This document shows, piece by piece, positions 3,352 to 61,800 of a DNA stretch of 64,000 nt (position 1 is its first letter; each line of letters begins with the position of its first letter). The stretch comes from Cymbomonas tetramitiformis. Taxonomy: Eukaryota; Chlorophyta; Pyramimonadophyceae; Pyramimonadales; Pyramimonadaceae. Position numbers and translations under genes: made by a program. The notes beneath the pieces were generated by a model. That model was not told the origin of the DNA and ran no database searches. It was given only the letters and a program-made list of their open reading frames with translations. Location: NCBI GenBank assembly GCA_001247695.2, contig LGRX02034885.1:1-64000 (forward strand). Reading direction: 5' to 3'.

Positions 3352-3465
3352 GGGGTCGATGATGGGGGTTACCCCCGCCGCTGCGGGAGCCGGTTGAGGG
3401 GCTTCGGCAAGAGAGCGACGTCCAGTGTCACTTTCTGGCCCCTCAGCCGAAAGGGTCCTCAGACC

Positions 3466-28530: not shown

Positions 28531-29916
28531 TCGGGGTGCTCTCATCACCGGTACTTGTGCAGTACCCGGAGAGTTTCCCTGAGCTGGAGCTGCTGGAACT
28601 GGAGCTGCTGGATCTGAAGTTGCAACTGCTGCATTGATACTATGCTGATTTTTTAGTTCCTTGACCAGGGTGTTGATTGTGTTAATGAGTTTGTTAGACC
28701 CATCTTTTGCACCCTGATTCTTCTGTGGCTGTCTCTGATTCTGAAAGGGATTCTGTGCTGGTGGCTTGCCTTTGATCTGCTTTCCATCATTGGTAGTGGT
28801 GGCCCAACAATCCTTCTCGATGTGACCTGGTCGATCACAACGATGGCAAGTCTTATTCTGATTCTGTTTCTGTGATTGTCCTTTTCCTCTTCCTTTTCCC
28901 TTGCCTTTGCCACTTTTTCCTTTATTCCTATTCTGATTGGACTTCTGACTGTCATTCTGTTTCCAATTCTGATTTTTAGATCTGTCGTATGGCTTATTGC
29001 CACGTCCTCTGTCCTTATCCTTTTTGGCTGGCCCTCCAGATGACTGTTCCTTCTGCCCTCTATAATGAAGAGTCTCTGATTGCTTCGAATGAACGACATA
29101 GTTCAAGTCGAGCAATATCTGTGTGGTTAGTGACCACGACATATTATTCCTTTCTGTCTCTGTCAGGAATCGTAAATGAAACTGTCTGCGAAGTTCCGGA
29201 TCTACGCTGTTGACGAATCTGTCCTTTATCAACACATCTTCCAGTTCAACTGCTGCCAGTGCAGCCAGTGAAGTGAATGTGCGTAGATAATCTGAAAAAG
29301 TCTGGTTTTCCTGTTTCAGTGACATTAGGTGTTTTTTAGCCACTGATCTTTTATGGGGGTTACCAAACTGTCTGAGGAAAATCTCTCTGATTCCTGCAAA
29401 TGTGGCATCTGGTTGATTTGCCACAACCTGGAAATAGTGTCGATCATTATTCTGTATGAGGGTCAGGAAAACTGTGATCAGGTCTTTATCTGGAACTCCT
29501 GGATACGTGAATTGGAAGTATCTATCCACGGTTTCCAACCAAACCTCTGCGTCCATTCCTGATTTGTACTGGTTTGGTGGTGCCATTTTCACTTTGGGAA
29601 CCAAACTGGATGGAGCTGGTGCTGGTGCTGTATCTGGATCTGTGAAAATCATTGGAGGATTGTCTGCAGTATATTCTTCATCTGGTTCCTGAGGCTCGTT
29701 TTCAGGATCTCGATATCTGCTCATATCAGGCTTCATTCGGCTGATATTGTCGAAGAACCCTATCTTGTCGAATCTGGTCTGGGTATTATCATAACCAGCG
29801 TGCCATTTCGGGATCTTGAAACGACTGTATGCATCATATGAGCCTAAGATGTCAAAGAACCATGTAGACGGATCTGCATTGATGGGTGGAATATCTGGAT
29901 CTTCTGCTTCTGCCAT
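28525..29916 (-). CDS. gag: Gypsy C gag with CCHC zinc knuckle
   Basis: A 463-residue uninterrupted frame starts at ATG 29916. The N-terminal third is acidic. A retrotransposon gag capsid domain follows (WLETVDRYFQFTYPG, then FLRQFGNP and LKQENQTFSDYLRTF). Then comes a Lys/Gln/Asn-rich basic stretch, a single zinc knuckle CHRCDRPGHIEKDC, and a Pro/Ala-rich tail ending in PRG. The stop TAG at 28525 lies within the start of the pol frame (-1), so pol is probably made by -1 frameshifting near CACCCCGAGGG. The ORF is intact and shows no decay. Confidence 0.93.
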   Translation of the reverse strand: MAEAEDPDIPPINADPSTWFFDILGSYDAYSRFKIPKWHAGYDNTQTRFDKIGFFDNISRMKPDMSRYRDPENEPQEPDEEYTADNPPMIFTDPDTAPAPAPSSLVPKVKMAPPNQYKSGMDAEVWLETVDRYFQFTYPGVPDKDLITVFLTLIQNNDRHYFQVVANQPDATFAGIREIFLRQFGNPHKRSVAKKHLMSLKQENQTFSDYLRTFTSLAALAAVELEDVLIKDRFVNSVDPELRRQFHLRFLTETERNNMSWSLTTQILLDLNYVVHSKQSETLHYRGQKEQSSGGPAKKDKDRGRGNKPYDRSKNQNWKQNDSQKSNQNRNKGKSGKGKGKGRGKGQSQKQNQNKTCHRCDRPGHIEKDCWATTTNDGKQIKGKPPAQNPFQNQRQPQKNQGAKDGSNKLINTINTLVKELKNQHSINAAVATSDPAAPVPAAPAQGNSPGTAQVPVMRAPRG

Positions 29917-43448: not shown

Positions 43449-46400
43449 ATGGCTAGGCAAAGGCGTGGACTAGCTCGAAACGAGAACGCGGAAGGCACTC
43501 CATGCCCATGCGATCAATGCAGACTCCGATTTTGCTACTCCAAAAAACAGATTAAGCGGCATTTGATCCTACATCCGCCCGTCGCACGCCTCTCCAATGA
43601 CCGAGATCATGAAGAAAACGACTCTCTTGACGGTGCCGAAAGTGTGAATGATGACGGTGAGACGGATCCACCATCAGAGACGGACGAAGAGGAAGAACAC
43701 GAGGATGACACATATCTTCATGACCATGCCGAACGGATGCTCCGGAAGATCCGTGAAAACTTCTTCAGCCCGATTGAGTATGCATCGTCCGACTCGGTGA
43801 GTTCTAAATCCCGTCCAAGCCGTTGGAACCATTGTTTAACAATATCCAAGCCCCGTCCAAGCCTTTGGAACAACCTTGGATTCCCCCACGAAGAAGAGTC
43901 CAAGCATCGTCCAAGCCTTTGGAACACCTTTAGAGCCATCACTGTAAGCCAGATTCTTACATCGCATCTTATTAGTTCAGGATTGCTGGGTTGATGGGAG
44001 TGGATGCCCGCCGTATTCTAGGAGGAGGAAAGTGATGCGCGCGAGCAACGTGAAAACGACCGAACAAGGGACCCGGAATTCATCATGGTAAGTTCAATAC
44101 GCACAGATTGAATGCCTTCCGAAAACTGCACTATATCACTATTCCAAGTCATTGGAACGGTGCGTCCTTACGTGTGGAACCCCTCTGGACCAAAATCAAT
44201 CAGATGCTGTGTGACTAAATTGCAGGAGGGAGAAAATGTGCATGACAAATCGGCTACCCTTGCAAACCGCTTCATACTGGATCTACTTGAGGCCCACTCC
44301 AACCATAACTCGACCCAGGCGTACTTTGACACAATCCTGGAAATTCTGCGACGTCGAGTATGCGGCTTGGAGGTCGACGATGAATCAATCTCGACCGATG
44401 ACGAGGTAGCACTACCTCATACCTACCAAGCGTGCCTGCGGTTTTTCAAGGATTTCCTCATGAAGTACAACGAGATGGATGTGTGCCAGAAGTGCAATTT
44501 TCTTTTCAAAGATCTGCTTCCCGAAGAGGCACCGACGTGTCCGAAATGCAACCACGGCCGGTTCAAGGAGCCATCAATGGTCGATGGCAAGTGGGAACCC
44601 GGAAGGGCCAAGTGCGTTTTCCGCTGGTGGCCGTGGACAAGGATACTGGAGGCCCTTTTCATGGATCCGGTGCAGGCACAGATGGCACGTTCATGGGAGA
44701 AAGTTGACTTGGATGAGCCGATCGTCAGAAGCACTGGAATATTAGGTGAGTAAACACTGTCAATTAGACTGCATGGATTGCCTATTCCGGGCGCCCGGAT
44801 TCATGCCTCCACCCGGATGGAACATGCGTCCGGCCGTTTGGATATGTCACAACACCCATTTTGGTTGTCTTGGTATAGTCCAAACGTGTGGACCGGGCGT
44901 TCCGGCCGTTTGGAATTTTGCGGATGTAGATTAACAAAGATAATTGCGAGTAAATCTGCATGGATGGCACGTTCCGGGCGCCCGGAATGGCGTTCCATCC
45001 GTGTGGAATATGAGTCTGGTCGTAATGGATATGTTACAACAACCTGTTTTGTTGTCTTAGCATAGTCCGAGCGTGTGGGATACCTAATCCGACCGGTTGG
45101 ACTAAGACATGTTAGTGCGGGTGTAGATTCACGAAGCTGGCAGAGGACCATGCTCGAGGACCCGGAGTTCTTCAAGGACAAGCGCAACCTCTCTGTGGTG
45201 TTATGCGCGGACGGCATCGAGAAATTCAAAGATAAACTGGGATCTGTGACACCTATAACCTGCCAAGTGGTGAATTACCCTGCACATCTTCGAGGCAAAA
45301 GCGAGTTCATTGTGCTTTGGGGCATTATTGATGGCAAACCCAAAGATGCCCAACTCTTCTACCACAAGTTCGTGGACGAGATTATTGACATCGAAAAGAA
45401 CGGTTGCCGGGTGTGGGACGTTATCGAAAACAAGCCTTTCACCGTTCGAGTCAAGTTGTACAAGGTGCTCGAGGATTATGTCGGATTGACCGAAGCGGGG
45501 AACGTGGAACAAACGCGAGGATGGGATGTTCCAAATGTTGGATTGTCGGGACAACAAAGGCAGAGTCTTGCATGCAGAAGACGATTTACGCGCAGATGCT
45601 ACAACAAAATCCAAGTAAGTCTGATCCTGCTGCATTCTTCCTAGTATGTATTCGGACGGTTGGACAGATTTCAAAATATTTCTGACTGTACTTCCAGGCG
45701 TCGGGAGCCCCGGTTCCGGCCGGTTGGACCATTATAGGGAAAATATGGAGAGATCAAAGCTAGTAATTCCACACGCCCGGAACCCATGCACCCCACGGCC
45801 GGACCTGTGTACTCGTGGTTTTACACAATATTCTTTCAACTGTATCGTGTTTTTTATGATGTTTGCAGGTGAAGAGCCAGCGATGAGAACGGACAAAGAA
45901 GTGAGGGAGTTGCAGCACCTGCACGACGGGATGATCGAAGCGGGTATGCATCCGGAAGTCATTAAGGACAAAATGGCACGGAGTGGGATCAAAGGATCGA
46001 GTGCTTTTACCAAGATTGTGAAGTTTAATTTGCCACGCGACTTGCTTTTCGACGTCATGCACATCTTGTCCAACAACTCCTGCCGGATTATGTCAGCGAT
46101 TCTCGGTGATGACTGGAATTTAAAGTGCCGAAACTTTGCGAGGGCCTATCAGATGCACAGGCCGTGGCTTATTCCTATACCAAGGAGGAATGAAAATGAC
46201 AACCGGAGCCCAGCAGAACGGCTGAGATGTGAGTACACCACCTGTCCAATATAATGATGGTCCAAACCCCTGATAGACGGTGGTGTAAGGGTTCCAAACG
46301 CCCGGAATGCTATTTCCTGAATGAATGTAGATGGTCCACACCCCTGTCACACGTTGGATAACGGGTTCCAAACGCCCGGAATGCTATTTTCTGAACGAAT

Positions 46401-48878
46401 GTAGATAATCCACACCCCTGTCACACGTTGGAGGGTGGGTTCCGAACGCCCGGAACGTTTCTTCATGAATGAATTAAGATTGTATAGGTTTCGTATTGAA
46501 CCAGGATAGGTTGTGTGCGTGTGTGTGGGATCGATCTCTTGTAGTGAAACCCTCTCCGTGGTCCCCTTCTAAGGAGGCCTTGAAGGAGATTATCCCATGG
46601 GTAAGAGGGCTCAAGTTTACCCGAGATTCGGGGCCGATTGGGAGGAAGTTTCTGCAAATCAAGGCGGGAACGCAAACTACGCCACGCAAGTTGAAAGCAC
46701 ATCATGGCGTAGTTGCTATCACAAGTGGACTCATGTCGATTGTCAGCGCGTGGATGAACAGTGATGGCCATGTGCTACAACCGGAATTCGCTTCCTACGT
46801 TGGGAAATATACGACGGTGGTCCGCGAGATTGTGAGCAGAACCATTGATATCGATGTGAGTATAAACACTGCTTACCCCACGTTCCGGGCGCTTGGAACC
46901 GTTTGGAGGCCATAGTCCGGACGTTCGGACCTGCTTCATGTTTGTTGCTCATGTTCATATGCTTCGGATTGGAATCACGATTCCGGGCGGCCGGACCAAC
47001 ATTGGATCAATGTTCCGGTAGCACGGAACCTATCCATTCAGGCTATACTGATTTATTCCGTTTTGGGCGTGCGGTTCAGCATCATAAAACTGGCATGGAC
47101 GCCTTGAAGACAAGGGTATTGGAAGTCCGTGACATCATGGAAGCTGAGCTCTCGCCTGAGCTTTTCGTCATTGCAACGCACCAGCTCGTTCATATTCCGG
47201 ATCAGATGCGTGACGAAGGACCAGTTCCCGATCTTTGGATGTTCGCTCCAGAGAGCTTCTTCGGCGAGCTGAGACGGATCATCAGGACTCGCTCGCACCC
47301 TGTCGCCAGCATGATGAAAGGGGTGGAGTTGAAACGCATGGTAAGTCTGGTACGCGGCTTATACCAGTTGCTACAGGCGAATGGTTCGCCACCAACCATT
47401 AGCCAACCACGTAGCGAGAACACCGTGTCCCTGATGTTGGCGACCGGCAACGAGAGGAAGGGCAAACTTGTCTACTCGACACCAGGTACTGTCCAGACTT
47501 AAGTGCATATCGTCCAATCTCGGTCCAGGGGTTTTGAAACGTATCATTGAGCAGGGTCCAACCGGTTGGAACTTGCTTGGACCTTTCATTAGACAAAGCC
47601 CAAGCCAATAGGGCTCGTTCCATCCACACCCTTCCGGGCGCCCGGGACCCAGGTTCCGGTTTGGTTCCGGGCGTTTGGAATTGGATCGTCAAAAGCACGC
47701 ATTGTTTAACAAATTTCCGTTTTGCGGTGCGTAGATGATAAGAAGGAGATACAAGCTTGGCTGGCTACAAACGTGGAGTGGTACGGGAACATTGTCAGAG
47801 AATTTAATCGTGCTGAAGACCATTACACGAGGTATGCATGTTTGCTTGACCGAAGCTTTTTTTTGACTAATCATTCACGTACGCAGTTTAGTGGTGTTCC
47901 CCTCGCCCGGAACTAACGTCCAAGCGCCCGGAACGTTGCTTCCGCGCATTTGGACCATGCAGGAACATTAGACAAAACCGACGTCGCTTGGCGGCTCGTC
48001 GCGGCAGGGGCAGTGGCCCAGGTCAAAACTTGACGAGGCCGATACTTCATCAACCTGAAACCTGGCGCAAGAGCCCCGTCACAGGGGAAGTCATTCCGTT
48101 TACGGAGATGGAAATGAGTTACGCCTTGGCACCACCGAGAATGTGGACAGAGTATGCTTACGTCAAAGTTCGCAATTTTAATTACAGATCGCTGGAAAGG
48201 GACATGAACAAGGCTACTTGTCATCGATATTTCAAGTCTGTCTTTAAAGTCTGGAATGTACAGAAGCTGCAAGAAGACGACCAGGACAGGTGAGACATGC
48301 CAACTATATATGTTCCAGACGTCTGTATAAGAGTGGAGTGTAGGTTCCGGCCGTTTGGACCATGGTCAAGCTACGTTTCATTAAATCTGTTTAAATATTC
48401 AAAAGTTCGATACGTTCCGGGCGTCCGGAACCATGCTGCCACACGGTTCCGGACGCCCGGACCAAAGCGTCCTTGTAGATCTCGATTTGCAGGTGTTCAT
48501 GATTCTTTCACTTCTGATGGCAGGTATGGCGAAATTCTGAAGGTCGTCAAGCTTGTCGTGCACACTGACACATATATTCTTGTGAAGTGTAGATGGTTTC
48601 CCCTCGAAGCTGCTCTTTCCGATGCGGTCACGCAAAACATCTACCTGCGCACCGATATGCCATGGGAAACCAAAGATGCATTCATCGAAGCGAAGGACAT
48701 CAACAATCAAGTGGTCGTGGCGCCCATTCCATGGAAGCCTTTGCGGCTTGCACGGTATACCGGTAACAAGGTTCCATTAAATATTGGACATCGGACAGAC
48801 GTGCTTGCCGTCGTGCTTGACCGCCACGTCGATTTTGTCGGCGATATCGGCGATAGTAGTTCTGATGACGAAGATTAG
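43449..48878 (+). CDS. Tnp2-type (CACTA/EnSpm) transposase, 10 exons
   Basis: Predicted exons: 43449-43796, 44020-44088, 44225-44741, about 45117-45612, 45869-46229, about 46470-46855, 47078-47502, 47733-47832, 47972-48292, 48523-48878. The N-terminus has the CPCDQC...H..H finger typical of Tnp2 proteins, followed by an acidic stretch. Exon 3 has CQKCNFLF...CPKCN and CVFRWWPWTRILEALFMDP, a hallmark Tnp2 block. Exon 4 begins the catalytic domain with a DGIEKF motif (Asp). A frame change near 45,500 is needed to reach MGCSKC. Exon 5 has LLFDVMHIL, matching the DxMH block. The last exon (FIEAKDINNQVVV, DVLAVVLD) matches the C-terminal DUF4216-like domain. The product should cut and paste the element. 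The frame change and uncertain exon edges leave open whether it is functional. Confidence 0.82.
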
Positions 48879-49319
48879 TTAACTTATTGCCTCGCTCGAG
48901 GCGGTAGTGTATCGGTCTCGTTGAGCTCCACGTGCTGCCAAGTCAGAACCTACCAGTTGTAAATATACTGTAATATATAACATGCATTGCACAGATAATA
49001 CTAACTTACCTGGAGTTCCAAAGGGGTTCCGAAGGCTTGGATGCGCCTTGGAATCCGTCAAACGCAAGTTCCGAAGCGGTTCCAAACCATTGGACTAAGC
49101 CTGGACCCCATAAGATATCACTTCCATAATCGTTCCAAAGGCTTGGACGGTCTTGAACTGCATGTAGCAAGAATGATCGGTCCAGAGAATTATCAGTCTA
49201 TATGTCAAGCACTTGCTCATAGCGTTCCGCTCTCAGATCGGGAAGTTCCAAGGGCTTGGAATTTCGGAACACGCTCCCGTGTTGCCCAGAGACTGGGCCT
49301 ATGGGGTTCCAAGGGCTTG

Positions 49320-49700
49320 GAATCTTTTGAAACCCACGCTCGTGCTGCGCAGAGACCGGTCCTATGGGGTTCCAAGCCGTGGAGCCTCCGGGCTCGAGCT
49401 TCATTCCTCGTACTAACAAGGTCCAAGGGCTTGGAATCTTTTGAAACCCACGCCCGTGCTGCGCAGAGACCGATCCTATGGGGTTCCAAGCCGTTGAGCC
49501 TCCGGGTTTGAGCTTCATTCCTCGTACTAACAAGGTCCAAGGGCTTGGAATCTTTTGAAACCCTCGCACGTGCTGCGCTGAGACCGGTCCAATGGGGTTC
49601 CAAGCCGTTGAGCCTCCGGGTTCGAGCTTCATTACTCGTACTAGCAAGTTCCAAAGGCTTGGAATCTTTTGAAACCACGCCCGTGCTGCGCGGAGACCGG
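49320..49700. repeat. 114-bp tandem repeat, four copies, right subterminal region
   Basis: AATCTTTTGAAACCC recurs at 49,321, 49,435, 49,549 and 49,663, exactly 114 bp apart. Units contain GTCCAAGGGCTTGGAA and GGGGTTCCAAGCCGTTGAGC. It is the counterpart of the left 152-bp array but unrelated in unit sequence. Confidence 0.92.
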
Positions 49701-50092
49701 TCCAATGGGGTTCCAAGCCGTTGAACCTCCGATTTCAGACTGCCGACCTCAGACTGGAAAGTTCCAAAGGCTTGGAATTGTCCAAAATGAATTCCAAACC
49801 GTTGGAACCGCCTTGGACCGACGACTTCGGTCATACGTAATCCGAGGACATAGGTCCAACGGCTTGGAATCGACCAGGACCCATTGGACTAACAAATTTC
49901 GGTCCAGCCCCTTGGAACCCCGTAGGACCGTCGGCTTGGAACCCCATAGGACTCCTAGGGAAAAACCCAAAGCTTCACCTTGCAATTCCCGGCGGTTTCC
50001 AAAGGCTTGGAATTTTACCAAATATTTTCAGGACGGTTCCGGGCGCCCGGAATGGTGCCGTCCAAGCCTTTGGAATAATCCCTATTTTGTAG

Positions 50093-51449: not shown

Positions 51450-53284
51450 ACTGGTGTAGGTAGTCTAAGGTGCGGTTGTGGTTCTATGTCACGAACGCAG
51501 GTGTGTACAAACGACCTCCGGTTACGACTCCTCCAACATATACCCTAAAACCCCGAACCTTGGACGCCCCGATATATCCATGTGCAGCACACCTGTAGGA
51601 ACACCTGCCGCGGTATATTTTTCCTCTGACGTATTTTTATGTTTCCCGCGAAATAATACAGTTAACCGGTCTTCTTAGCTGCCGAGAATCGTCCTGGAAT
51701 AGCCTGTATGTTCAGGGCAAATTGACCCGCTGAATGCCCATGTTGGGTCACATGAAGCCTGGGGGAGCATCACCCCTGGTTGTTTTCAGTCCTGAACAAC
51801 TTTTGCAGCATAATAGCTTTTGGAAACATGTCCTTTGCTGCTCACTTTCGCCCGATGAGAAGTATTTTACTACGTGACCCTCCAAACACCCTAAAATGGG
51901 CCATAAATCTGCTGGATCTCTCCCATGTAAGCAAATAGTTGCATTTTTGGAAATGTCAAAATATTACATATTCTAATAGTGCAAAAATCTAACATTTCGT
52001 TCACAAACATAAGGCAAAATCATAACTTTCCACACCTAACACGATACTTCCACCTTTCCCGTTTTCTTGCCGCACGCGTGACTCGCGTGGCTACTTTGAA
52101 GAGTCAAAAACCAGATTTTTCGAAATTCCTTCAAGAACTATTCAAATTAACCCTCATATTTGTCATTCAGAACCCCAAAAACCAATTTGGCAGACAATTT
52201 AATGCTTTCTCATTTTTTTTTCTCATTTGCGCCCGCGTGTCTCATTTTTGCGATATGGTCGTTCCTTGCCTCCTCTACCATTGGCGGTATCTCATGCCCG
52301 CTATTTTCTTGCTGTGGTGCTTGCTTGCATGTTCTGCGCCAGTATCAGTGCTGCTTCCTCCTCTTGCTCCATCTGCCGGAATTCAATCTCATCTTCCTGC
52401 ATTTGTTGCGCTTACATTTCCTGTAGGAGTCTCCACTCTTGCTCTTCTCTTCTTTACGGTTTCGGACTTATTCTATTCTACACTTATTAAACGACCGCAC
52501 GAGGTATGATTACGTTTGGTCAACTGCAAGACTTCGGTTTCGTAAATCTTTATAGTTATGCTTTTGCTTTCAAGTGTATGCTTTCAATACACAATATACA
52601 GCAGTTACGGCTCTTACTTTTTATGTTACAATTCTCAGTTCAGTTCTCATCTCCGAAACTGGTTACACTTAGAGTTCTTATGCAAGGCTCATGAACTCTT
52701 TCCATAACTCTACTGTACTGAGTACTCCGTACAACAGGCTAGGCACCTCACATCAACATCATTCTGATCGGTCCTACTGTACTCCGTACTGAGTACTCTT
52801 GCGTTTTATACTTAGCCGTTTTTCTTGCTCTTGTGCTTGCCTCCTAGCACAACTCCCCCCCCCCCTTAGGGAAGGTCACGTCCACGCTGACCACGTCGGA
52901 CCAGTAAAGTTTTTATACAGATCTTCTACTGTTGCTCAGAATGATTATACAGGTCTCAGCCGCCTGTTGTCTGGGATGACATTACACTTCCCAAGACACA
53001 CCGCAATAAGGAGATCAACCTCTTAAGCACAAGGGTCGGCCTCTCACCGGTCTGCCATCTGCACTAGTACCAGGCTCCCCCAAGGCTCGAGGTCTCACAT
53101 CCATTACCACGCTCAAGGTTTTAAACCTTCCAACACGGTACAGTTACAGGGGATGACAATAGGTTTGCCAATTACCTGACAGTTCTCGGGATGCCGGCCC
53201 GGAGGAAAGGTTTTAAACCTTCACCGCCTCCTCGGAGTGCGTAGAGCTTTTACCCAGATCTCCAACTGCTGCCCGGTCGTGCCA
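51450..53284. other. Mostly noncoding region between elements
   Basis: Apart from the coiled-coil fragment at 52.30-52.46 kb, I see no gene. Duplicated words such as ACTGTACTCCGTACTGAGTACTC (near 52,710-52,800) are present. From about 52,800 the sequence is probably the 3' untranslated or LTR part of gypsy B. Confidence 0.45.
52301..52460 (-). pseudogene. Glu/Gln-rich coiled-coil fragment with premature stop
   Basis: The minus strand reads EEQEWRLLQEM, then a TAA at 52414-52412, then AQQMQEDEIEFRQMEQEEEA and AALILAQNMQ, ending at TAG 52303-52301. The heptad-like pattern continues across the stop, so this looks like a broken helical exon of a larger gene (possibly a transposase tail). A plus-strand hydrophobic frame over the same bases is its shadow. 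Confidence 0.35.
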
Positions 53285-53578
53285 GGTCCGGAGCCAATGC
53301 TCTCGTGAAATGGATTATACAGATTTCCACCTGTTGCCTGGTCGCACCGAGGCTAGAGCCACTGCTCGGTTGGATAGATTATACAGGTTCTCACCTGCCG
53401 CCTGGTCATACCGAGGCTTAGAGCCACTGCTCAAATGGATTATACAGATTTCCACCTGTTGCCTGGCTGTGCCGAGGCTAGAGCCACTGCTCTCTCGGAT
53501 GGATTACCCAGGTTCTCACCTGCCGCCTGGTCTCGCCAAGGCTGGAGCCACCGCTCTTCCCGACGCTCCCCAACGCTC
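53285..53578. repeat. About 60-bp tandem repeat 3' of gypsy B pol
   Basis: Four to five units alternate GATTATACAGATTTCCACCT and GATTATACAGGTTCTCACCT, followed by GCCTGGTC..CCGAGGCT.GAGCCACTGCTC. Less similar copies go back to about 52,900. The array abuts the pol stop codon at 53,579. Confidence 0.85.
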
Positions 53579-56493
53579 TCAATCGCTAAGACCACTCGCG
53601 TCAGATTCCCATCCGCCCTCAGGTATGATCGTCACTTCAGCTCGTACTCCCGCTAACGCTATCGGTTCCGGCTCAAACTCGGGCGGGTCACTCTCAACAA
53701 CAGCTGACTGGACTAAAACGCTCATCTCGCTCAGATCCTCCCTGACAAGCAGTTCAGACAGGAACGCATGCACCTCTTCATGTAGGGTCAGGTTGTGGAA
53801 AAGCTGTTTTAACAGTGCCGACGGAATCCCATACAAATTCTCTCGCGCTCCCATGCCCTTCGCAAACACACCTCCGGCTCTCATCGCGCGCCATCCTTGC
53901 GCTACCTTCTCGTGCCTACCGTTCTGCCGGAAGAACTCGCAAGGCGTGTCGGAATCGCACACTCGCAAGGGTGTGCGCAACGGAACGTTGGTCCAGATGT
54001 GCGTGGGCTTCCTGTATGCGGTCCCGTATTTACAGTACGCGACGAGGTGCGGAGCTGGTAGATTGCTCATGCATCGACGCGTGTGCAAACCGTGGGGCTC
54101 TCTTCCCTTCGGGTTCTCAATGAAGTATGCTTCGGGCCTCAAGTACCGGATGATCTCCAATGTCCTACGAACTCGCCTGTCCGCAGCGCGCAAATCTCGG
54201 ATGCCTACCGTCTTCGCCTGGCTGTACTCTGTACAAGGTGGGCTAGCCCAGACTACGTCGAAGTGTCCTGGTCTGAACTGTCGGTAGTCCCATCGCATGA
54301 TATCCTCGCAATGTGTGGGGGCCCACTTGGGCTGAATGTCTACGGCACCTACTTCGCTGTTGGGAAATTGCTTAGTGAACTGCCTCTCGACTGACCCGGT
54401 CCCACAAAACAATACGAGAATCTTAGACTGGCCGACTGGCTCCTTCTCAAGTGCTGCGGCTCCGTTGACTGGCGGCAGGGTGCTCTGAGCAGATACTCTC
54501 GCGAAAGTTCCTACTTCCTCATCAAACCTCTCCTCTGGCACCCATGGCATTGCTCCGTCTACCTTGAGCTCCTCCGAGAGCGTGGTCCATACCGCTCCTG
54601 CGGACTCGTCGCGCCTCTTACGGACCCTAAGCTTCTCTCGCTCCACTCTCTTAGCCTCGATCCTCTCAAACTCCAACAACGCCCGGTTGGGAACGCCGGG
54701 CCTGCCGGCTCCGTCCCACTCCAGATCCTCTCGGGTCTTCCACTCGTTCTCACTGCGGGGCATTCCTGTCCACTTGACCAGGTACTCCGTCCACCTCCTA
54801 CCCTGACGCTGGCGCGTGCGCGAACGCTCCACCCTCTCGACGTGGGTTTCCTTGCGCCCGCTGACGTCCAACGGAGGAGGGGGAATCTCCTTAGCTCTCT
54901 CAACAAAGCGGCTGCTCGACTCTACCGGCGAAAGCCGGTCCACGGTAAACACATCGTGCACCTTCCACTGCTTAGGCGTCTGCAACCTATAGGCCGACGG
55001 TGCGCCTCTATCGCTCGCGGGAAGGGCCATCTGCCTGTCGCTGTGAAAGACTTCCAGCACCCGAAGGGGCCCGAGGCGCTTCTTAAGCAATTTCTTGTGC
55101 AACCCGCGGTCGCCCGGCTGGGTGAGGTACGTGGCGTCCACCCAAACCTCATCGCCTACTGCGTAACTCCTGGACTTGTGACGCGCGTCGTACTGGGCGA
55201 TCTGCTGCTGCTGAGCTAAGAGCAGCTTCTCCCTAGCGAGCTGCAACTGGCGAACAAATTGGCGGGCTGTCTCGTGGGCTGTACCCTTTTTTACTGCTGC
55301 GCCCCTCCCCCCCTTAGCTCGGCCTCTCCGTGATGCAAGTGCTGCCTCCACGAAGAAGTCCAGCTGAGAGGCCGGAGCGTGACCGTACGTCAGTTCAAAA
55401 GGGGTGAAGCCCGTGACGGCGGAACGAGAGTCATTAACGTACTCGACCGGGGTACACCACAAATCCCAATCGTGCTGGTTGGCGTCGACATACGCGCGCA
55501 ACATGCGTTCGACCGTGTGGTTTGTGTGCTCTGCCTGCCCATCACCTTGTGGGTGGTACGGCGTGGTAGAGGCAACCTGGACTCCCATCAACCGATGTAG
55601 CTCGAGATGCATCTCATCCCTGAAGCGGGAGTCCCGATCACAGACGATTTTCATGGGAGCGCCGTGCAAACGCCACACTTGGTCGAAATACATGCGCGCG
55701 ATCTGTGCAGCCGAGCTGTCAGCGTAAAGCATGGGGACTACGTGCACCATCTTGGACAGCTTGTCCGTGAAGGTAGCAAACGCGTCGTACCCTCGCTCTG
55801 TGCGAGGCAGCCCAGTGACGAAGTCGATACTAACCACTTGCCACAGTCTTACTGGGACTTGCAGGGGGTTAAGCTGACCGTCTGGATACCCGTTGCGTGG
55901 CCGGGTCTGTTGGCACACGACGCAGGATTTGCACCAGTCGGTGACATCCTTGCTCATGCGTGGCCACCAAAAACGACGGGATACCCTGTCCAGTGTCTTA
56001 TCCCTTCCTGTGTGCCCTGCTGCTGGGGACTCGTGTGCTTCGCGCATCACCAGCTCTCTGAGGGGGAATCCTGAGCTAGCACTAGCTGATACCGCCCTTC
56101 TGCCACTCGCCATATCATGTCGTCTACCATGCGAAATGTGTCTGTCCTCTGATGTGGGGCTGCGATCAGTTCTTCCTTCAACGAGCTGAGGTACGGGCTG
56201 CGTTCGTATTCCGCTTGCAAGGCGCGGACGAACTCATCAGCCTTCAGTGGTCCTGACGCTGCCCTGGCCTTTGCTGCAACCCCTGTAGTGACTAAAGGCT
56301 CGTCGGGTTCTGCTTCACTGTCCTTTCGCGCAGGTGGCGCTCGGGGCTTTGCCCTGCTGGCTGCTGGGGCCCACACCAGAAGGACCGGCCAGCGCAGCGG
56401 GGGCCGACCTCCATCAGGAGACTCGAAGAGGTGGTTGGGACGACCTTTTTCGTCCTTCGTGTCAAAGACCTTGATTGACCGGATGAAGCCCAT
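53579..56493 (-). CDS. Gypsy B pol 3' part: integrase, chromodomain, C5-cytosine methyltransferase
   Basis: Two overlapping frames (56493-56047 and 56113-53579) join by a one-base shift near 56,065. Integrase: zinc finger H-x-H...CKSCVVCQ, then the catalytic blocks IDFVTGLPRTERGYDAF, VCDRDSRF and GQAEHTNHTVERML. A chromodomain-like segment (TEYLVKWTGMPRSENEW) is near 54.75 kb. From about 54,421 to 53,755 the same frame carries a cytosine-C5 methyltransferase: motif I LFCGTGSVERQF, motif IV ASPPCTEYS with the catalytic Cys, motif VI FIENPKG, and YRKPTHIWTN as in phage and viral relatives. A further 60 acidic residues end the protein. All catalytic residues are present. The expected role is DNA binding and methylation of target or element DNA, which is inferred. 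Confidence 0.88.
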
Positions 56494-57820
56494 ACTTGGG
56501 GTGAATCAACCGCCTCCAGGGAGCGTCATAGTCTGGCAGAAGGAACATCGCCGAGGTGTTTTCTGGATCGGCGCGCCACTCAGCAAGGAAATGCCGAAGA
56601 ATTCTTTCTATCAAGTCCGAATCCTTCGTGTAAGGGGGGTTACACCAAACGTGTTTCCCGCGCCACTTTTCCTTCAAGCAGTCGGTCCAATAGGTGTCAA
56701 CCTGCCGGTTAACGCCCATGGAGTCGCAACACGCGTCAACGTCAAACATCCCGTACTGGGCCGCTATCTCCTCAAAGCGCTCCCTGATCAGCTTCCAGTC
56801 CTGGCGATCTACGACCTGGTCGTAGTGGGAGCTACCTTCTGGGGGCTGAACGGGCTCAGGTACCTTTCCGGCTACCTTCGGATGACTCTGGGTCTCAGGA
56901 TGGGGGAACTCGTCGGTCCCCGGTGCTCCTCTCTCCGGGTGACTCTGGGCTTCTGCTGTGGCCTGTTCCCTAGCTCGGTCTGCTCTGGTCATGACTGCTA
57001 GCGATTCGGCATCCCTCAAGGACTTCTCGCCTACTGCTAGGGTGGCAGCTGCGTCCAGCCAGAGGGCCGGCGTCTCTACCCACGTGAGCCCATTCAGATG
57101 GGTGAGCTCACCAATGACCGGTGCCGGACTGGTGGGAGGGAAGGAATCGTCCTCGGAATCACTATACTCGAAGGTGGCGCCTAAGACAGATGTGGGATCC
57201 TCGTCCTCTTCACATCTCTTGCTTTTCGGCTCAGAGTACTCGGGTCCATCTGTGGCGCGGTCCACTGCCCTGAGGACAGAGGTAGGATCCTCGTCCTCTT
57301 CGGACCCCTTGACTTTCGGTGCGGAGTCTCTGGGCCCATCCGTGGCGCGATCCACAATCCCTTTTTCCTTCAAACCTTCTCTGGCTGACATTTCCCGATA
57401 GTCTGGTCGCCGGGACTGCGCATCCGGTACTACCAAACAGCGCCCTGGCACGTGCTCCATCTGATGGACTCCTACCTCTACCAAGTCCTCGTACCAGCGA
57501 GCCTGACGTCGGCTGAGCTCCCTAGCTGAGGCGAAGAGCCACTGGAGGGGTTTGTGGTCTCCCATGAGCTTAAATGATGTAAAAATCAGATAATGTCTCC
57601 AGGTGACCGTGGTACAATGATGGATGGCACAAAGCTCCCGTTCCCCAGCGTGATAGTTCTGCTCTGCGCTGGAGAACTGCCGGCTTTCAAAGGCCAAGGG
57701 CTGCAAGCCTCGTCCCTGATCCTGCATGAGTACACCCCCTAGTGCTACTCCACTGGCATCTGTCTGTACGAAGAAGGGTCTGGAACCGTCTGCTGCGCCC
57801 TTTTTGTTGGGTTTTGCTGG
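56462..57820 (-). CDS. Gypsy B pol middle part: RNase H and Dam-like N6-adenine methyltransferase
   Basis: RNase H begins after the insertion with FFVQTDASGVALGGVLMQDQ, continues with YHAGERELCAIHHC and GDHKPLQWLF, and has a tether-like segment ending VPDAQSRRPDY. An acidic Glu/Asp/Ser linker with a duplicated block follows (SEEDEDPTSVLRAVDRATDG and a near copy, about 57.3-57.17 kb). From about 56,800 a Dam-type domain appears: FDVDACCDSMGVN, then WRGKHVWCNPPYTKDSDLIE with the catalytic NPPY, then AMFLLPDYDAPWRRLI. The frame stops at 56,462, but the domain continues in the next frame (RSIKVFDTK, VLLVWAP), so a one-base indel lies near 56,490. This fold is found in phage adenine methyltransferases and in DIRS retrotransposons. 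Confidence 0.87.
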   Translation of the reverse strand, partial: PAKPNKKGAADGSRPFFVQTDASGVALGGVLMQDQGRGLQPLAFESRQFSSAEQNYHAGERELCAIHHCTTVTWRHYLIFTSFKLMGDHKPLQWLFASARELSRRQARWYEDLVEVGVHQMEHVPGRCLVVPDAQSRRPDYREMSAREGLKEKGIVDRATDGPRDSAPKVKGSEEDEDPTSVLRAVDRATDGPEYSEPKSKRCEEDEDPTSVLGATFEYSDSEDDSFPPTSPAPVIGELTHLNGLTWVETPALWLDAAATLAVGEKSLRDAESLAVMTRADRAREQATAEAQSHPERGAPGTDEFPHPETQSHPKVAGKVPEPVQPPEGSSHYDQVVDRQDWKLIRERFEEIAAQYGMFDVDACCDSMGVNRQVDTYWTDCLKEKWRGKHVWCNPPYTKDSDLIERILRHFLAEWRADPENTSAMFLLPDYDAPWRRLIHPKYGLHPVNQGL

Positions 57821-58397
57821 AGCCAACATAAGCCTTGCTGACAATGCCGGGAGCTGTCGGTACCGGATTGTACATTTTATTAGCTCAAAATGACGGCGGG
57901 GATGTTCTCTTTCACACATGCGCTAACAACATTGGGACGCTCGAAGTCATCTGCGAGAATTTGGGTTACTATTCAAGAGAATGTGAAAATCTGCGGAATT
58001 TCCAAGGAATTTTGGGTGTTTACATACCCATGTTACTTCGATCGATATTTTGAGGGTCAAGATGAACTCGGATGAAAGTTTTGACAAGACACTGCAGAAA
58101 GAGCAGCTCGAGATCTTGACAACATAGGTGTTCGATTTTTCAATGCCCTTCTCATGCCGCTCACATTGCACAAATTTCTTATGTTGGCTGCAGCCAACAT
58201 AAGGAGCATTTTGTATTTTCGCGATCATACCCCAAATCTAGGGCACAATTATGCAAGCCCCCATGGGTGTAAGAAGGTATACCACGTATTGACAAATTTT
58301 AAAAGGTCTAGTAGCCCTTCAAACAACGTTGCTTTGGAGCAATATGTATCATTAACCATGAGTAATATGCTTCGGAACTTTGGGTTTTATGTTGGCT
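57821..58397. mobile_element. MITE-like double insertion with GGCTGCAGCC junctions
   Basis: Three AGCCAACATAAG-type sequences, in both orientations, divide the segment into two units, 57821-58199 and 58202-58397. Each starts AGCCAACATAAG and ends CTTATGTTGGCT or TTTATGTTGGCT, and units are separated by GC, so each junction is a palindrome with core TTGGCTGCAGCCAA. The segment has no gene and interrupts gypsy B pol between RT and RNase H. No clear target duplication is visible. Confidence 0.65.
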
Positions 58398-60459
58398 GCA
58401 GCCAACATAAAGATGGGTAAGAGACATTTTGATCGAGTAGGGCCAAGGCTGGGGAGGAGATCAAAGCAGTTTTTAGCTGTTTAAATGCTGCCTTTTCATT
58501 CTCGCCCCAGGTCCAGTCCACGCCGGATTTGGTGAGGCGGGTCAACGGGTACGCGATATCTGCGAAGTTCTGGATGTACCTTCGGTAGAAGCCACACATG
58601 CCCAGGAACTGTCGCACGTGTGTGACAGTTTCTAGGTATGGCCAATCGCGTACCGACGCAACCTTATCCTGCTGTGGGCGGCATCCATCCCGATCCACCA
58701 CATGCCCTAGGAACCGGACTGATCGTTTGCACAGTTTGACTTTCGACTTTTTAAGGTAGACGGAATTCTTTCGACACGCCTCCAAGACCTGGCGGAGGTG
58801 GTCGAGGTGTACCTCATGGGCGCTCTTACCCGGAACCTCAGCCGAGAAAATCATGATGTCATCTACAAATACTCTGCAAAAGGGTAGGTGCCCGAGGTAC
58901 TGTTGCATCATCCTTTGCCAGGTACTTGGGGAGTTTGACAATCCCATGGGCATGACCAACCACTCGTACGCTCCAAAGTGCGTAGTCATTGCGGTTTTCT
59001 CCACGTCCTCTGCTTTCATAGGAACCTGCCAAAATCCCCAAAGGGCATCCATCGTAGAGAAGACGGTAGCCCCTTGTAGGTCATCTAAGAGACTCTGTAC
59101 ATCTGGGAGGGGGTACTTATCCTTGACTGTGATCTCATTGATCTGTCTGTAGTCAATGACTAGACGCAACTCTTTGGGATTACTCGGCTTGGGGACCATC
59201 AGCACGGGGCAGCCCCACGGAGAGGCCGAGGGTCGTATGTACCCTTTGGCTAAGAGTTCATCTAGCTGTTGCCGGAGTTGCCGCAACTCCTCCTGCGACA
59301 ACTTGTACCCTCGCCGGTGCAAGGCGTTCCCACTCCAATCTGGCCTGAGCCGGATGCCGGACTTGAATTCCCTTGACTGGACTGATTCTGGCAGCTCTGT
59401 GCAAATGACATCTGCGAACTCCTTTTCCAGGTCCCTAAGCTGCTGCCAGATTTCCGGCGACACCGTCTCGTCTATCTCGTCCTCCGGCGGTTCCGGGGAG
59501 GCCTGAGCGGTCTGTGGGGCTGGCGGCGGGGTAGTGCCTGGCGGGACGGCCGGTACCGGCGGGTCTGTGGTCTGCGGAGCTGGCGGCGGGGTAGTGTCTG
59601 GCGGCACGACTGGTGCCGAGGCTCGCGACTTCTGCCTCTGAGGGCTCGGGACGGTGGGGACTTTTGGTCCCGGCGGCTGCCCGGCGGAGGGGCCACTTTC
59701 AGCACCAGGCTGACCGACTGCTGCGACCTGGTCACGCCAACGCACTCGCTTACGCCGTGCTCGGGGTCGTCGCTCCGCGACCAGACCCCGGCCCTGCTGG
59801 AGCGCCGCGGCTGCCTGAGCGTGCCAGGTGGGTGGCTTCCCGGCCGCGTGATCCTCTATCGCCTGTCTACGCACCGCTGGCGGAAGCAACGCAAATGCTC
59901 CGTTCGCCTCCTGCTTGCTAGCGAAAACGCTGAGAGGGTCAGGATGATCCCCGGCCTCGTCGACCGTACTCGCAAATCCCTGTGGCCTAATATCCTCGAC
60001 CACCGCCCCTACTCTCCGCAAATGACACGCCCCTTCCACGTCACTGTAGCCGGACTCGGAGCTGTCCGAGACCAACCCTCCCGGCCCCTCAGACTCCTCT
60101 GCTCCGTCCGGCACCGTTGCGCTGGGACGCACGCTGACTTCACTATCCTCGGACCCGGAGGAGGGTTCTGACGCTAGGCCTGCTACAACATCGTTGGGGG
60201 AATCTTCATCGGAGTCTCCCCCCCCTTGTTGCAGGCCAACGCGCCAAAAGTCCCATCGGGTCCGAGGTAGACAACGAAAGCTTGCTCCTCTCTGTTCCGG
60301 AGGGTCCGCAGGTCCCGACGAGCTCGACGTTGGCTCAAAATGACTCCCTGCACCAGTGCCATTGCCGTGTCCTTGGACCGACTGGGGTCCGGGGACCCCG
60401 GCGAACAGCCGGTGATGACGACCTCTTCTCTGCCCTTGGTGAACCGGACCGAACCCCAA
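58398..60459 (-). CDS. Gypsy B reverse transcriptase region
   Basis: A long N-terminal low-complexity linker (Glu/Ser/Gly-rich, then Pro-rich with two PPGTTPPPAPQT repeats) is followed by a standard Ty3/gypsy RT. Visible blocks are IRPSASPWGCPVLMVPKP, LRLVIDYRQIN, YPLPDVQSLL, FSTMDALWGFWQVPM, MPMGLSNSPSTWQRMM and CRVFVDDIMIFS (FVDD active site), then LKKSKVKLCKRSVRFLGHVV and the thumb/connection. It starts in a different frame from the protease ORF, and the two overlap at a G8 run at 60,218-60,225. It ends at the insertion near 58.4 kb. Confidence 0.93.
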
Positions 60460-61470
60460 TTCTTATAATCCAGTGTAACCGGGGAAAGGTTTGCCAGCCA
60501 AGGACCTCCTAGGATGACATCCACCTTGAGGTCGAGGGGCATTACCCGAAGCTCAACCTGCTGGCCGTATGACCCCTTTGACGTCTCAGCAAGGAGCTTG
60601 GGCCTGATGCAGGGATTAGCATCATACGTGGTGCCGTCAGCCACTCGAACCCGCATGGCTTGCTCGTGGCGCACCGGCTTGATGCCGGTGAGCTTCTGCA
60701 GTGTACTCTTTGCGATAATATTGGTGGACGCTCCCGAATCCACCAACACCTTGACTCTGACGCCCGCAATCCAGGCCCAAAACAGCAACAACGTCGGTGT
60801 GCGACTGTGCCTGTCGAAACTCCTCGGGCGCGCTCCCATCGAGGACACCGCTGCCAGGGACTCACACCAGCTCGGACTGATATCGCCGTCCTGCATTATG
60901 CAGTCCAGGCGGGTGACTGACGTTTCCGCGTCGGAGTCACAGTCCGGGAGGCAGTAAGTACATGCGTCAGCTAGCAGGCCGATGGCGACTGCTTTCTGGA
61001 CTGCACTGCGCTCCGGGAAGTCTGGGGGGGAAACCGCGACCTGAACTGATGCTGCAGCCAGTTTAGCCGCTATGTGCTTTCTGATTTGCTCGTCCCGGTG
61101 CATCAGCTCATTGTCTTGCTGAAGTTCCCTATTCTCCCTTTCCAACTCCTCCTGCACGAAAGCATGGAAGTCCGCATGGCGTTCTGTCGAGGTAGAAGCC
61201 GGGTCCCTATCCTCCAACTCGTATTTGCGTTGCAATCGAGAGGTTCGAAGCGCCTTGTCTTCAGGAGTCAGCCATGGTCTGCGTTTCGGACCCAAAGCCT
61301 GGCGAGCCCTGCTTCTGGTCAACCACGGCCGACTGGGCTTTGAAGTTCTCTCTGGTGGTGAGAGCTCTTCTCCCTCGGCAGGCTTGGGCTTGGCTACGCG
61401 AACGAACCGTCCGAACTCCTGATCCAAGATGGCTCGGCGTCGGCGATTGAATTCACGTACCCCAGTGGTG
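60183..61470 (-). CDS. Gypsy B retropepsin-type protease region
   Basis: The frame is open from beyond 61,427 (upstream codons continue to about 61,490) to 60,183. The first part is basic and helical with a coiled coil (FVQEELERENRELQQDNELM). The protease has VKVLVDSGASTNIIAKSTL, later VDVILGGPWLANLSPV (flap and hydrophobic-Gly blocks), and ends in the overlap with RT. The upstream gag is missing because hAT sequence begins at about 61.5 kb. The DSGA context parallels gypsy A near 1.97 kb. Confidence 0.85.
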
Positions 61471-61499
61471 ACAACGGGTCCGGCTCCGTACGTTCGGAT

Positions 61500-61800
61500 C
61501 CAGAACTTGTTTGTCTCGATCCGAGCCGAAGCCCAAATCTTTTAGGCTTCGATCGAGACGGGTCAAGACGGAGGCAGAAATTGTATGGCTCCGACCGAGA
61601 CAGAGTCAGGATTCTATAGGCTTCGATCGAGACGGGTAGCATCGGAGGCAGGATTTTTACGAATCCGACCGAGACAGAGCCAAGATTCTTTAGGCTTCGA
61701 TCGAGACGGGTCAAGACGGAGGCAGGGTATTTTAGACTCGGACCGAGACGGAGCCAGAGATTTCTAGGCTCCGAGAATATGACAAGTTTACGGAGCCGGA
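61500..61800. repeat. TCGATCGAGACGG / CCGACCGAGACRGAG array
   Basis: Units of about 74 bp repeat three times: GGCTTCGATCGAGACGGGTC, then AAGACGGAGGCAG, then GGCTCCGACCGAGACAGAG. Single copies of CTCCGTA/TACGGAGCC lie at both margins (about 61,485 and 61,790). It is probably the subterminal region of the adjoining hAT element. Confidence 0.8.

Follow-up and report, generated by a model that had tools for sequence, protein, structure and literature searches.

The minus strand of the window, a stretch of 64,000 nucleotides from the marine green alga Cymbomonas tetramitiformis, carries between 52.4 and 61.5 kb a damaged, 5'-truncated Ty3/gypsy chromovirus; the window shares 97-98% identity with Cymbomonas proteins. 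The pol of this copy encodes, in this order, a protease, a reverse transcriptase (RT), an RNase H, a Dam-like adenine-N6 methyltransferase (MTase), an integrase, a chromodomain and a C5-cytosine MTase. All features lie on the minus strand, except for one insert to which no strand is assigned. The 5' truncation point at position 61462 corresponds to position 6215 of the 14589 positions of the element in the intact copy C3347 (blastn). It is followed by the aspartic protease (60501..60773; PF13650, 1.3e-7), the RT (58699..59196; PF00078, 5.7e-31) and the main part of the RNase H (57479..57784; PF17917, 9.7e-29), which is split by a 622-bp insert containing two perfect 26-base palindromes (57805..58426; sequence comparison). 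The Dam-like MTase with the motifs DACCD and CNPPY (56362..56818) is frame-broken near 56.47 kb. The integrase consists of an H2C2 zinc-binding domain (55895..56062; PF17921, 1e-23), a catalytic core (55550..55840; PF00665, 9.9e-5, 23.0 bits, under the cut-off of 32.6) and a C-terminal SH3-like domain (54923..55156; PF24626, 3.4e-5, 24.3 bits, under the cut-off of 30). Downstream of it are the chromodomain (54719..54844; PF00385, 1.6e-7) and the C5 MTase domain (53789..54451), which contains FCGTGS, WASPPC, FIENP and KPTHIW. Beyond the pol stop and ahead of the 3' LTR (52422..52851; 93.5% over 444 columns in a blastn comparison with the LTR of C3347), a repeat search revealed a tandemly duplicated unit of ~125 bp (53255..53557); repeat matches are also seen between C3347 and the remaining family-A copies.

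The earlier note on this DNA had placed a Ty3/gypsy element with both MTases at 53579..57820; the element is found there but is longer, extending from 52422 to 61462. The motifs it named are all located on the minus strand, NPPY in the ORF 56462-57922 and FCGTGS, ASPPC, FIENP and YRKPTHIWTN in the ORF 53579-56233. Its statement that they reside within one pol holds for other copies, which have open frames through both domains, but not for the window copy: one frame change near 56.47 kb cuts the Dam domain and a second one is located near 56.06 kb, and together with the insert these rule out a single frame through all domains. No LTR pair was found by a search within the window alone because the copy is 5'-truncated, and the window gave no match with Rfam at the gathering threshold or in a tRNA scan. 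The same window harbors a second chromovirus without MTase matches in its scanned ORFs; gypsy elements of this genome can thus do without MTases.

Further copies with the same domain order, for which the note had proposed to look, are present in the genome, with open frames of 2,500-2,870 aa. The dual-MTase pol forms single open frames in C3347 (family A, 2,753 aa; a single ORF with the order PR-RT-RNase H-integrase), C25394 (2,724 aa), C22237 (2,859 aa) and C18166 (2,615 aa), and it is also found in the database protein models P0002, P0031, P0034 and P0036, with the C-terminal C5 domain being cut short in P0002 and P0031. LTR pairs of ~428 bp were identified in five of nine fetched copies, these five being of family A; they are 96.5-100% alike, and similarity of up to 100% points to recent activity. 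All five LTR-paired copies, which lie at different loci, are flanked by 5-bp target-site duplications (TSDs; judged by eye) and contain both MTase motifs in one frame. Direct LTRs, a short TSD and a chromodomain after the integrase are features of Ty3/gypsy chromoviruses; for the 5'-truncated window copy there is neither a TSD nor an LTR pair. Membership of the DIRS group, which is marked by a tyrosine recombinase and split A-B-A-B repeats, was ruled out by the plain direct LTRs, the H2C2 and rve integrase matches and the absence of a tyrosine recombinase match in the ORFs scanned. Exact codon patterns revealed 3,649 Dam, 4,424 integrase and 5,571 C5 motifs in the genome. Among the first 100 integrase sites listed, both MTase motifs occur at the expected spacing in 53 cases (three with an altered Dam), the C5 without the Dam motif in 23, the Dam without the C5 motif in 16 and neither in six, the motif variants SPPCR and CSPPH being included in this count. 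Taken together, these sequences establish an autonomous-looking Ty3/gypsy chromovirus group of Cymbomonas with thousands of motif-bearing copies.

The identity of the two domains was assessed by profile searches and motif alignments. In the window copy, the Dam-type adenine-N6 MTase reaches 36.8 bits with PF05869 (4e-9), above the cut-off of 28.1, and DACCD plus CNPP are present in 11 of 11 aligned Dam rows. The note had expected PF00145 to match the C5 domain as well; this profile stays one bit under its cut-off of 22 in the window copy (21.0 bits, 2.6e-4) and reaches 19.3 bits in C3347, yet it passes in the relatives P0005, P0009, P0010, P0011 and P0012. The other relatives have matches below the cut-off or no PF00145 line, the latter including L147 at E 0.01. 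The motifs typical of C5 MTases, motif I, the PC motif and the EN motif, are present; in the alignment, the catalytic Cys of the PC motif and ENP occur in 13/13 rows each and SPPC in 12/13. PHROG DNA-methyltransferase families match both domains (phrog_757 for C5, 1.2e-15; phrog_111 for Dam, 1.5e-12). A profile search against solved structures gave 17 matches for the C5 domain at E 1e-3, all of which are DNMT2 and DNMT1 chains; the six weak matches obtained for the Dam domain include no methyltransferase. In rows aligned from subfamilies other than CSPPH, the catalytic motifs are preserved across ~45-55% identity. In Pol, RNase H and integrase enclose a Dam-type adenine-N6 MTase domain, and the chromodomain is followed by a phage-like C5-cytosine MTase domain; both are assigned by profile and motif as putative DNA methyltransferases. 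Neither of the outcomes named in the note as refuting it occurred, although PF00145 stays just under its cut-off in the window copy; the profile searches and the intact copies bear out its central claim, a Ty3/gypsy element with one MTase domain of each chemistry on either side of the integrase.

Selection was assessed by pN/pS within families only, because in most domains synonymous sites have reached saturation when subfamilies are compared; between-subfamily ratios were not used. In family A, pN/pS is 0.105 for Dam, 0.049 for C5 and 0.081 for the integrase, compared to 0.68 for a linker, which demonstrates at the sequence level that both MTase domains are under purifying selection. An altered-Dam subfamily with CSPPH in place of CNPPY occupies 179 genomic sites, and in its copy C40 the reading frame stays open across DACRG, CSPPH and the C5 domain. 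A nucleotide-based run for this subfamily gave a pN/pS of 0.065 for C5 and of 0.43 for Dam, the latter based on four synonymous and five nonsynonymous sites only; Dam appears looser than integrase plus C5 (p 0.23) and changes faster than in two of three relatives. To judge from the 179 CSPPH sites, amplification does not seem to need an intact Dam motif, unless help is provided in trans. Given that a subfamily with an altered Dam motif has been amplified, C5 activity may be more necessary than Dam activity.

The same fusion was found at ~45% identity in L147, a contig binned as bacterial. The nearest non-retrotransposon relatives of the C5 domain that were found are phage proteins, several of which are annotated as DNA methyltransferase or DNA methylase. 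The C5 tree was built with 17 of 66 viral loci, one of which (L010) has no usable ORF, and without any Dnmt3 sequence; the phage match L183 (no usable ORF) and one BM15 dcm row (by choice) were left out. In this Dnmt3-free tree, the nearest non-retrotransposon rows are viral. In the Dam tree, for which 20 of 80 retained viral loci were used, the Dam domain of the DIRS-like protein P0039 sides with the retrotransposon Dams against the 20 viral ones. The Dam domain of L147 is placed apart from the Cymbomonas rows and shows a weak 88/74 grouping with other element types; therefore, it is not established that the dual arrangement arose only once. The RNase H, Dam, integrase and C5 trees share the main split, and both MTases were probably aboard before the sampled families split. 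A tblastn search of a Dam protein in phages gave no hit at 1e-5, and searches of viral contigs with the two window ORFs yielded a single unconfirmed stretch. Phage-like MTases are suggested as a source of retroelement genes, beside captured host Dnmt3.

Which function could maintain both domains? Methylation of the element's own cDNA on A and C is considered the most likely one, at somewhat less than an even chance. Since both MTases belong to Pol, they would enter the particle along with RT and integrase and would methylate the new double-stranded cDNA on both bases before or at integration. The marks could protect the cDNA from nucleases recognizing foreign DNA or, alternatively, make the new insert resemble host DNA. 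De Mendoza et al. (PMC5890265) report, in the text available, that DNMTs of retrotransposons are capable of de novo CG methylation, and methylation of cDNA has been proposed there. The self-marking suggested in the note gains nothing from the one sequence test available, a CpG-deamination footprint, which was negative in nine younger copies; the MTase-free chromovirus in the window, the CSPPH sites, the integrase sites with only one or neither MTase motif and the placement of the L147 Dam also weigh against this reading. The overall best explanation, a dual-MTase chromovirus group with both domains constrained and its cDNA methylated by its own Pol, is given a slightly better than even chance. 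A more far-reaching version is put forward only tentatively: a two-base modification system in Pol would stamp each new cDNA with a passport through host or viral DNA defences, and subfamilies with altered Dam and retained C5 would now be losing one mark, thereby indicating which mark the present host environment demands.

Alternatively, guided by the chromodomain, the MTases might target the chromatin into which the element integrates, or copies already present, and lower the element's expression or keep its insertions silent as a form of self-restraint. The C5 domain indeed follows the chromodomain in the same polypeptide, slower transposition was discussed as a possible benefit by de Mendoza et al. 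(PMC5890265), and transcripts matching over-represented Cymbomonas scaffolds are reported to be expressed at a near-median level (median FPKM 1.32 vs. 1.42; Burns et al., PMC5741210). However, nine younger copies show no excess of CpG transitions (8/8,862 CpG vs. 22/27,672 other C sites; OR 1.14, p 0.83), the more diverged window copy shows a weak one (OR 2.2, p 0.02), and CpG is not strongly depleted (observed/expected 0.87 in the element and 1.08 in the LTR). Lasting CpG methylation of inserted copies, the only kind of mark to which this footprint speaks, is therefore unsupported, and self-restraint is regarded as rather unlikely. A role in defence against DNA viruses, in which the MTases would mark or damage incoming viral DNA or confer resistance to restriction enzymes of giant viruses, is improbable. 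Algal giant viruses carry restriction enzymes, and the C5 domain resembles phage proteins. Such a role has been proposed for retrotransposon MTases in general (PMC6338049), and giant-virus and PLV insertions are present in the Cymbomonas genome, whose 2023 assembly drew on Oxford Nanopore data (PMC10675990). Constraint in a high-copy selfish element is, however, more simply explained if the MTases serve the element's own cycle.

Among solved structures, the C5 domain matches DNMT2 best (2e-5), an entry titled tRNA (cytosine(38)-C(5))-methyltransferase, and RNA methylation was raised for LINE DNMTs by de Mendoza et al. (PMC5890265), so that the substrate of the C5 domain might be RNA, either genomic or the tRNA primer, instead of DNA. 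The alignment with DNMT2, however, spans profile positions 7-117 only, and the phage relatives annotated as DNA methyltransferases argue against an RNA target, which is judged quite improbable. It is very improbable that one or both domains lack catalysis and are retained in Pol for nucleic-acid binding or as structural parts. The open frame of C40 and the higher pN/pS and faster change of the CSPPH Dam would agree with this, but the motif conservation in the other subfamilies speaks against it, and a looser Dam next to a tight C5 domain fits the loss of one activity better. Finally, the window copy is frame-broken and rearranged, as might be expected of an accidental or misassembled junction between host MTase genes and a retrotransposon. 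This artefact is ruled out by the five loci that combine an LTR pair and a TSD with a single open frame containing both motifs; reading frames that stay open across the two domains at many places on different contigs, protein records from other sources and the fusion in L147 leave it a negligible probability.

Retrotransposons with a single MTase are known, which raises the question of why genes of a class normally directed against them are retained. A Pol that combines the two chemistries, its thousands of copies, the measurable constraint on either domain and the naturally occurring altered-Dam subfamily allow direct tests of which mark is set on which DNA at which step; one testable possibility is that the element places chemical marks on the DNA of its own copies. 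Dam has been described in DIRS elements, whereas DNMTs are on record for LINE and DIRS elements and for a single gypsy element (PMC5890265, PMC6338049); in the available parts of this literature on retrotransposon MTases, no description of both in one element was found, in line with the novelty suggested in the note. Burns et al. (2015; PMC5741210) reported three over-represented Cymbomonas scaffolds with >10,000x coverage containing chromodomain, RNase H and cytosine MTase, which very probably represent the dual-MTase element group; they are given there as scaffold contents, and the available text describes no element, Dam or dual arrangement. Chlamyvir-type chromoviruses are named for a Cymbomonas chromodomain pol (PMC10675990), but a term search did not find 'methyltransferase' in the main text of that paper, and the comparison is by description only. 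The DIRS elements share a Dam-like MTase with the Cymbomonas group, but have a tyrosine recombinase instead of a DDE integrase, and no C5 MTase is mentioned for them in the available text (PMC5890265, PMC6338049). SymbioDIRS-Dnmt3 and SymbioLINE-Dnmt of Symbiodinium are likewise multi-copy retrotransposons with a C5 MTase under selection; however, they use a tyrosine recombinase (DIRS) or an endonuclease (LINE), their MTases belong to the Dnmt3 or an orphan lineage, and the available text mentions no Dam (PMC5890265). KnitGypsy-Dnmt3 of Klebsormidium nitens (PMC5890265) also carries a DNMT within the Pol ORF of an LTR Gypsy element, under purifying selection and in an alga of the green lineage. 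By its description, it has a Dnmt3-related MTase alone and DIRS-like repeats, which sets it apart from the Cymbomonas elements, whose two MTases include a phage-like C5 domain downstream of the chromodomain and which have plain direct LTRs and 5-bp TSDs.

The damaged Ty3/gypsy chromovirus of the window extends over positions 52422-61462 of the minus strand and ends in a 3' LTR (52422-52851, minus strand), as revealed by comparison with C3347, an intact copy that belongs to family A. The motifs that an earlier note had named for a Dam-like adenine-N6 and a cytosine-C5 methyltransferase are all present on this strand, in the ORFs 53579-56233 and 56462-57922. The note had also expected profile matches for both domains, which was borne out for Dam (PF05869, 4e-9), while the C5 domain (PF00145) reached 21.0 bits and stayed under the cut-off of 22. 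RNase H, Dam, the integrase H2C2 domain and the chromodomain were matched by Pfam; the integrase core, SH3 and the C5 methylase fell under the cut-offs, and both methyltransferase domains were recognised by PHROGs. A profile of eight C5 domains matched 17 sequences of solved structures at E 1e-3, all of which are DNMT2 or DNMT1 (best E values 2e-5 and 1.8e-4); nothing relevant among the solved-structure sequences matched the Dam profile. The top protein matches, at 98% in the C5 region and 97% in the Dam region, are from Cymbomonas tetramitiformis. The window copy is broken: its 5' end is truncated at element position 6215 of C3347, the frame changes within Dam near 56.47 kb and again near 56.06 kb, and comparison with C3347 places a 622-bp insert inside RNase H (57805-58426). 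Two perfect 26-base palindromes with the core TTATGTTGGCTGCAGCCAACATAA are located in this insert (58178-58203 and 58386-58411).

The Cymbomonas assembly (851.7 Mb, 25,745 contigs, the window lying within contig C24749) was searched for further copies with the same domain order, as the note had proposed, and such copies were found, with Dam and C5 in one open frame in each of five LTR-bounded elements. With the window ORF as query, 51 of 16,935 first-look candidates were scored, eight of which lie in open frames of at least 2,400 aa; the database proteins P0034 and P0002 yielded frames of at least 2,600 aa in 13 of 27 main rows and of at least 2,560 aa in 17 of 40 rows, respectively. Nine family-A copies, chosen partly for their long frames, were fetched, and in six of them the pol frame extends over 2,518-2,757 aa. 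Five carry near-identical LTR pairs (99.5, 100, 98.2, 96.5 and 99.5%) and are 14.4-14.6 kb long; by eye, each is flanked by a 5-bp target-site duplication, their LTRs start with TGTG and end with TACA, and a purine-rich tract precedes the 3' LTR. In C3347 (14,589 bp), an ORF of 1,368 aa, in which a zinc knuckle is weakly matched (18.1 bits, under the cut-off of 20.8), overlaps the 2,753-aa pol, which is arranged in the order PR, RT, RNase H, Dam, H2C2, integrase core, SH3, chromodomain and C5 methylase.

The element is abundant. Exact degenerate-codon patterns, which do not allow for mutation or contig ends, were counted on both strands of the whole genome and gave 3,649 sites for the Dam motif VWCNPP[Y/F] (reversed-pattern control 0), 179 for the altered motif VWCSPPH (0), 4,424 for the integrase motif DGQAE..N (2), and 4,362 and 1,209 for the C5 motif WAxPPC followed by T/K/N (1) or by R or S (2). 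Among the first 100 integrase sites by contig order, 50 have Dam 0.9-1.5 kb upstream and C5 1.0-1.6 kb downstream, and three have the altered Dam motif and C5; Dam without C5 was seen at 16, altered Dam without C5 at two, C5 without Dam at 23 and neither motif at six. On reading, C43, a single-methyltransferase copy by the first motif table, has both domains, with C5 as an SPPCR variant, and in C40, classified likewise, the Dam-like domain bears DACRG and CSPPH; C30 has both domains, C5 being cut after ENP. Burns et al. (PMC5741210) describe three Cymbomonas scaffolds of >10,000x coverage with homology to chromodomain, RNase H and cytosine methyltransferase, which very probably belong to the same element group.

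Both domains are under constraint. SPPC is found in 12 of 13 aligned C5 rows (SVPC in the remaining one), ENP in all 13, and DACCD and CNPP in all 11 Dam rows. In the nine family-A copies, pooling of all pairs, which are not independent, gave pN/pS values of 0.105 (Dam), 0.049 (C5), 0.081 (integrase), 0.121 (RNase H) and 0.219 (RT). The linker that joins RNase H to Dam stands at 0.682; the two other linkers are low (0.186 and 0.077), so that only the RNase H-Dam linker serves as a loose control. Families A and B, between which synonymous sites are mostly saturated, share an amino-acid identity of 87% in both Dam and integrase and of 72% in C5, versus 55% and 56% in the linkers flanking Dam and 62% in that before C5.

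The 179 sites of the CSPPH subfamily, in which the Dam motif is altered, probably descend from one altered ancestor, since a single 21-mer is common to the 100 sites listed. Two of seven copies sampled (C40 and C165) have the Dam-like domain and C5 in one open frame. Compared with C40, the remaining six show 98.9-99.9% identity wherever they match it, a stretch limited to the first 0.94 kb in C1439 (with a +4 indel) and to the first 2.52 kb in C2970. Apart from C40, C165 and C1439, the copies (four, C2970 among them) have private frame-changing indels, each at a different place, and thus no shared inactivating change was seen among the seven. These indels may stem from sequencing error, or amplification of the subfamily may have been helped in trans. 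In six copies, pN/pS amounts to 0.43 in Dam (from 4 synonymous and 5 nonsynonymous sites; difference to the other domains p 0.23), to 0.124 in integrase and to 0.065 in C5. With family A as outgroup, CSPPH Dam evolved faster than its counterparts in D2 (25 to 7, p 0.0015) and D1 (22 to 10, p 0.03), and not clearly faster than that of a third relative, L184 (26 to 16, p 0.12); with family B, the respective p values are 0.001, 0.08 and 0.43. No relative-rate excess was seen in RNase H and integrase, and none at the 5% level in C5. Together, pN/pS and relative rates suggest, without proving it, that Dam is loosening in this subfamily while C5 is kept.

For RNase H, Dam, integrase and C5, one domain tree each was built from eight pol copies (seven from Cymbomonas and L147, a contig assigned to a Verrucomicrobiaceae MAG). 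All four separate families A and B from the D group, which is a clade in three (not RNase H), and weaker inner branches differ; from this agreement we infer that both methyltransferases were aboard before the sampled families split. In L147, one open frame runs from a partial RNase H through Dam, integrase and chromodomain to C5, and this contig is probably eukaryotic DNA misbinned into a public bacterial genome. It is 45% (Dam) and 48% (C5) identical to family A; its Dam match (27.5) is just under the Pfam cut-off of 28.1, and its C5 domain, for which PF00145 gave no match at E 0.01, is backed by motifs and tblastn (40% identity, 9e-50 among candidate stretches). Downstream of its pol, an 852-aa ORF (4118-6673) weakly resembles an otubain (PF10275, E 0.0047, below the cut-off). 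P0005, a protein from a JGI source, is at best 84% identical to 53 scored places in the Cymbomonas genome, which suggests that it derives from another, related organism.

In wider trees, whose rows were gathered by similarity to the window family and are therefore biased towards a retrotransposon grouping, 19 retrotransposon C5 rows are separated from 18 viral and two dcm rows (99/96), and 24 retrotransposon Dam rows, including one copia-like and one DIRS-like row, from 20 viral rows (100/100). L147 Dam groups weakly with other element types (88/74), apart from the Cymbomonas rows. C5 follows the integrase part in 14 of the 19 rows and lies near protease or RT in five. P0009-P0013, retroelement-like proteins in which a related C5 domain either follows a protease-like part or precedes RT, form their own branch of the C5 tree. 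P0038 is a Ty1/copia-type pol with Dam between integrase and RT; in the gypsy pol P0037, Dam is matched under the cut-off and a PHD-like finger weakly. P0008 carries an integrase SH3 domain, a Tudor-like match that stays under the cut-off, and a C5 methyltransferase, after which comes EKNPGPS, a stretch that we take to resemble a 2A peptide motif. In Bacillus phage BM15, three adjacent genes bear the annotation of cytosine-C5 specific DNA methylase, and one of them is of the short type, like the retrotransposon C5 domain.

Beyond the observed anatomy, abundance, LTR identity and constraint, both methyltransferases would be packaged together in the element's particle, where they might methylate its cDNA. 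Lasting CpG methylation of inserts is not supported by the nine copies, which show no excess of private CpG transitions (8/8,862 CpG versus 22/27,672 other C, p 0.83); the more diverged window copy has 15/1,027 versus 21/3,184 (p 0.02). Transient marking, non-CpG contexts or 6mA would leave no CpG-transition trace. A useful control is provided by a second Ty3/gypsy chromovirus (22472-29916, minus strand) with gag, PR-RT, integrase and chromodomain in separate frames, in whose scanned ORFs no methyltransferase was matched. The window also contains a GC-rich block (0.63-0.64; 2001-8000), whose scanned ORFs are without Pfam match, and units of 74 bp and ~114 bp repeated in tandem (46256-46477, 49308-49789 and 61494-61774).

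None of the literature matches listed describes, in the passages covered, an element with both Dam and C5. De Mendoza et al. 2018 (PMC5890265) report DNMTs from LINE and DIRS elements of Symbiodinium and from a gypsy element of Klebsormidium; Dam is mentioned there for DIRS, separately from these. In Morozov et al. 2019 (PMC6338049), DAM and DCM domains are listed for Ty3/gypsy and DIRS retrotransposons, and antiviral roles are proposed for retrotransposon methyltransferases.
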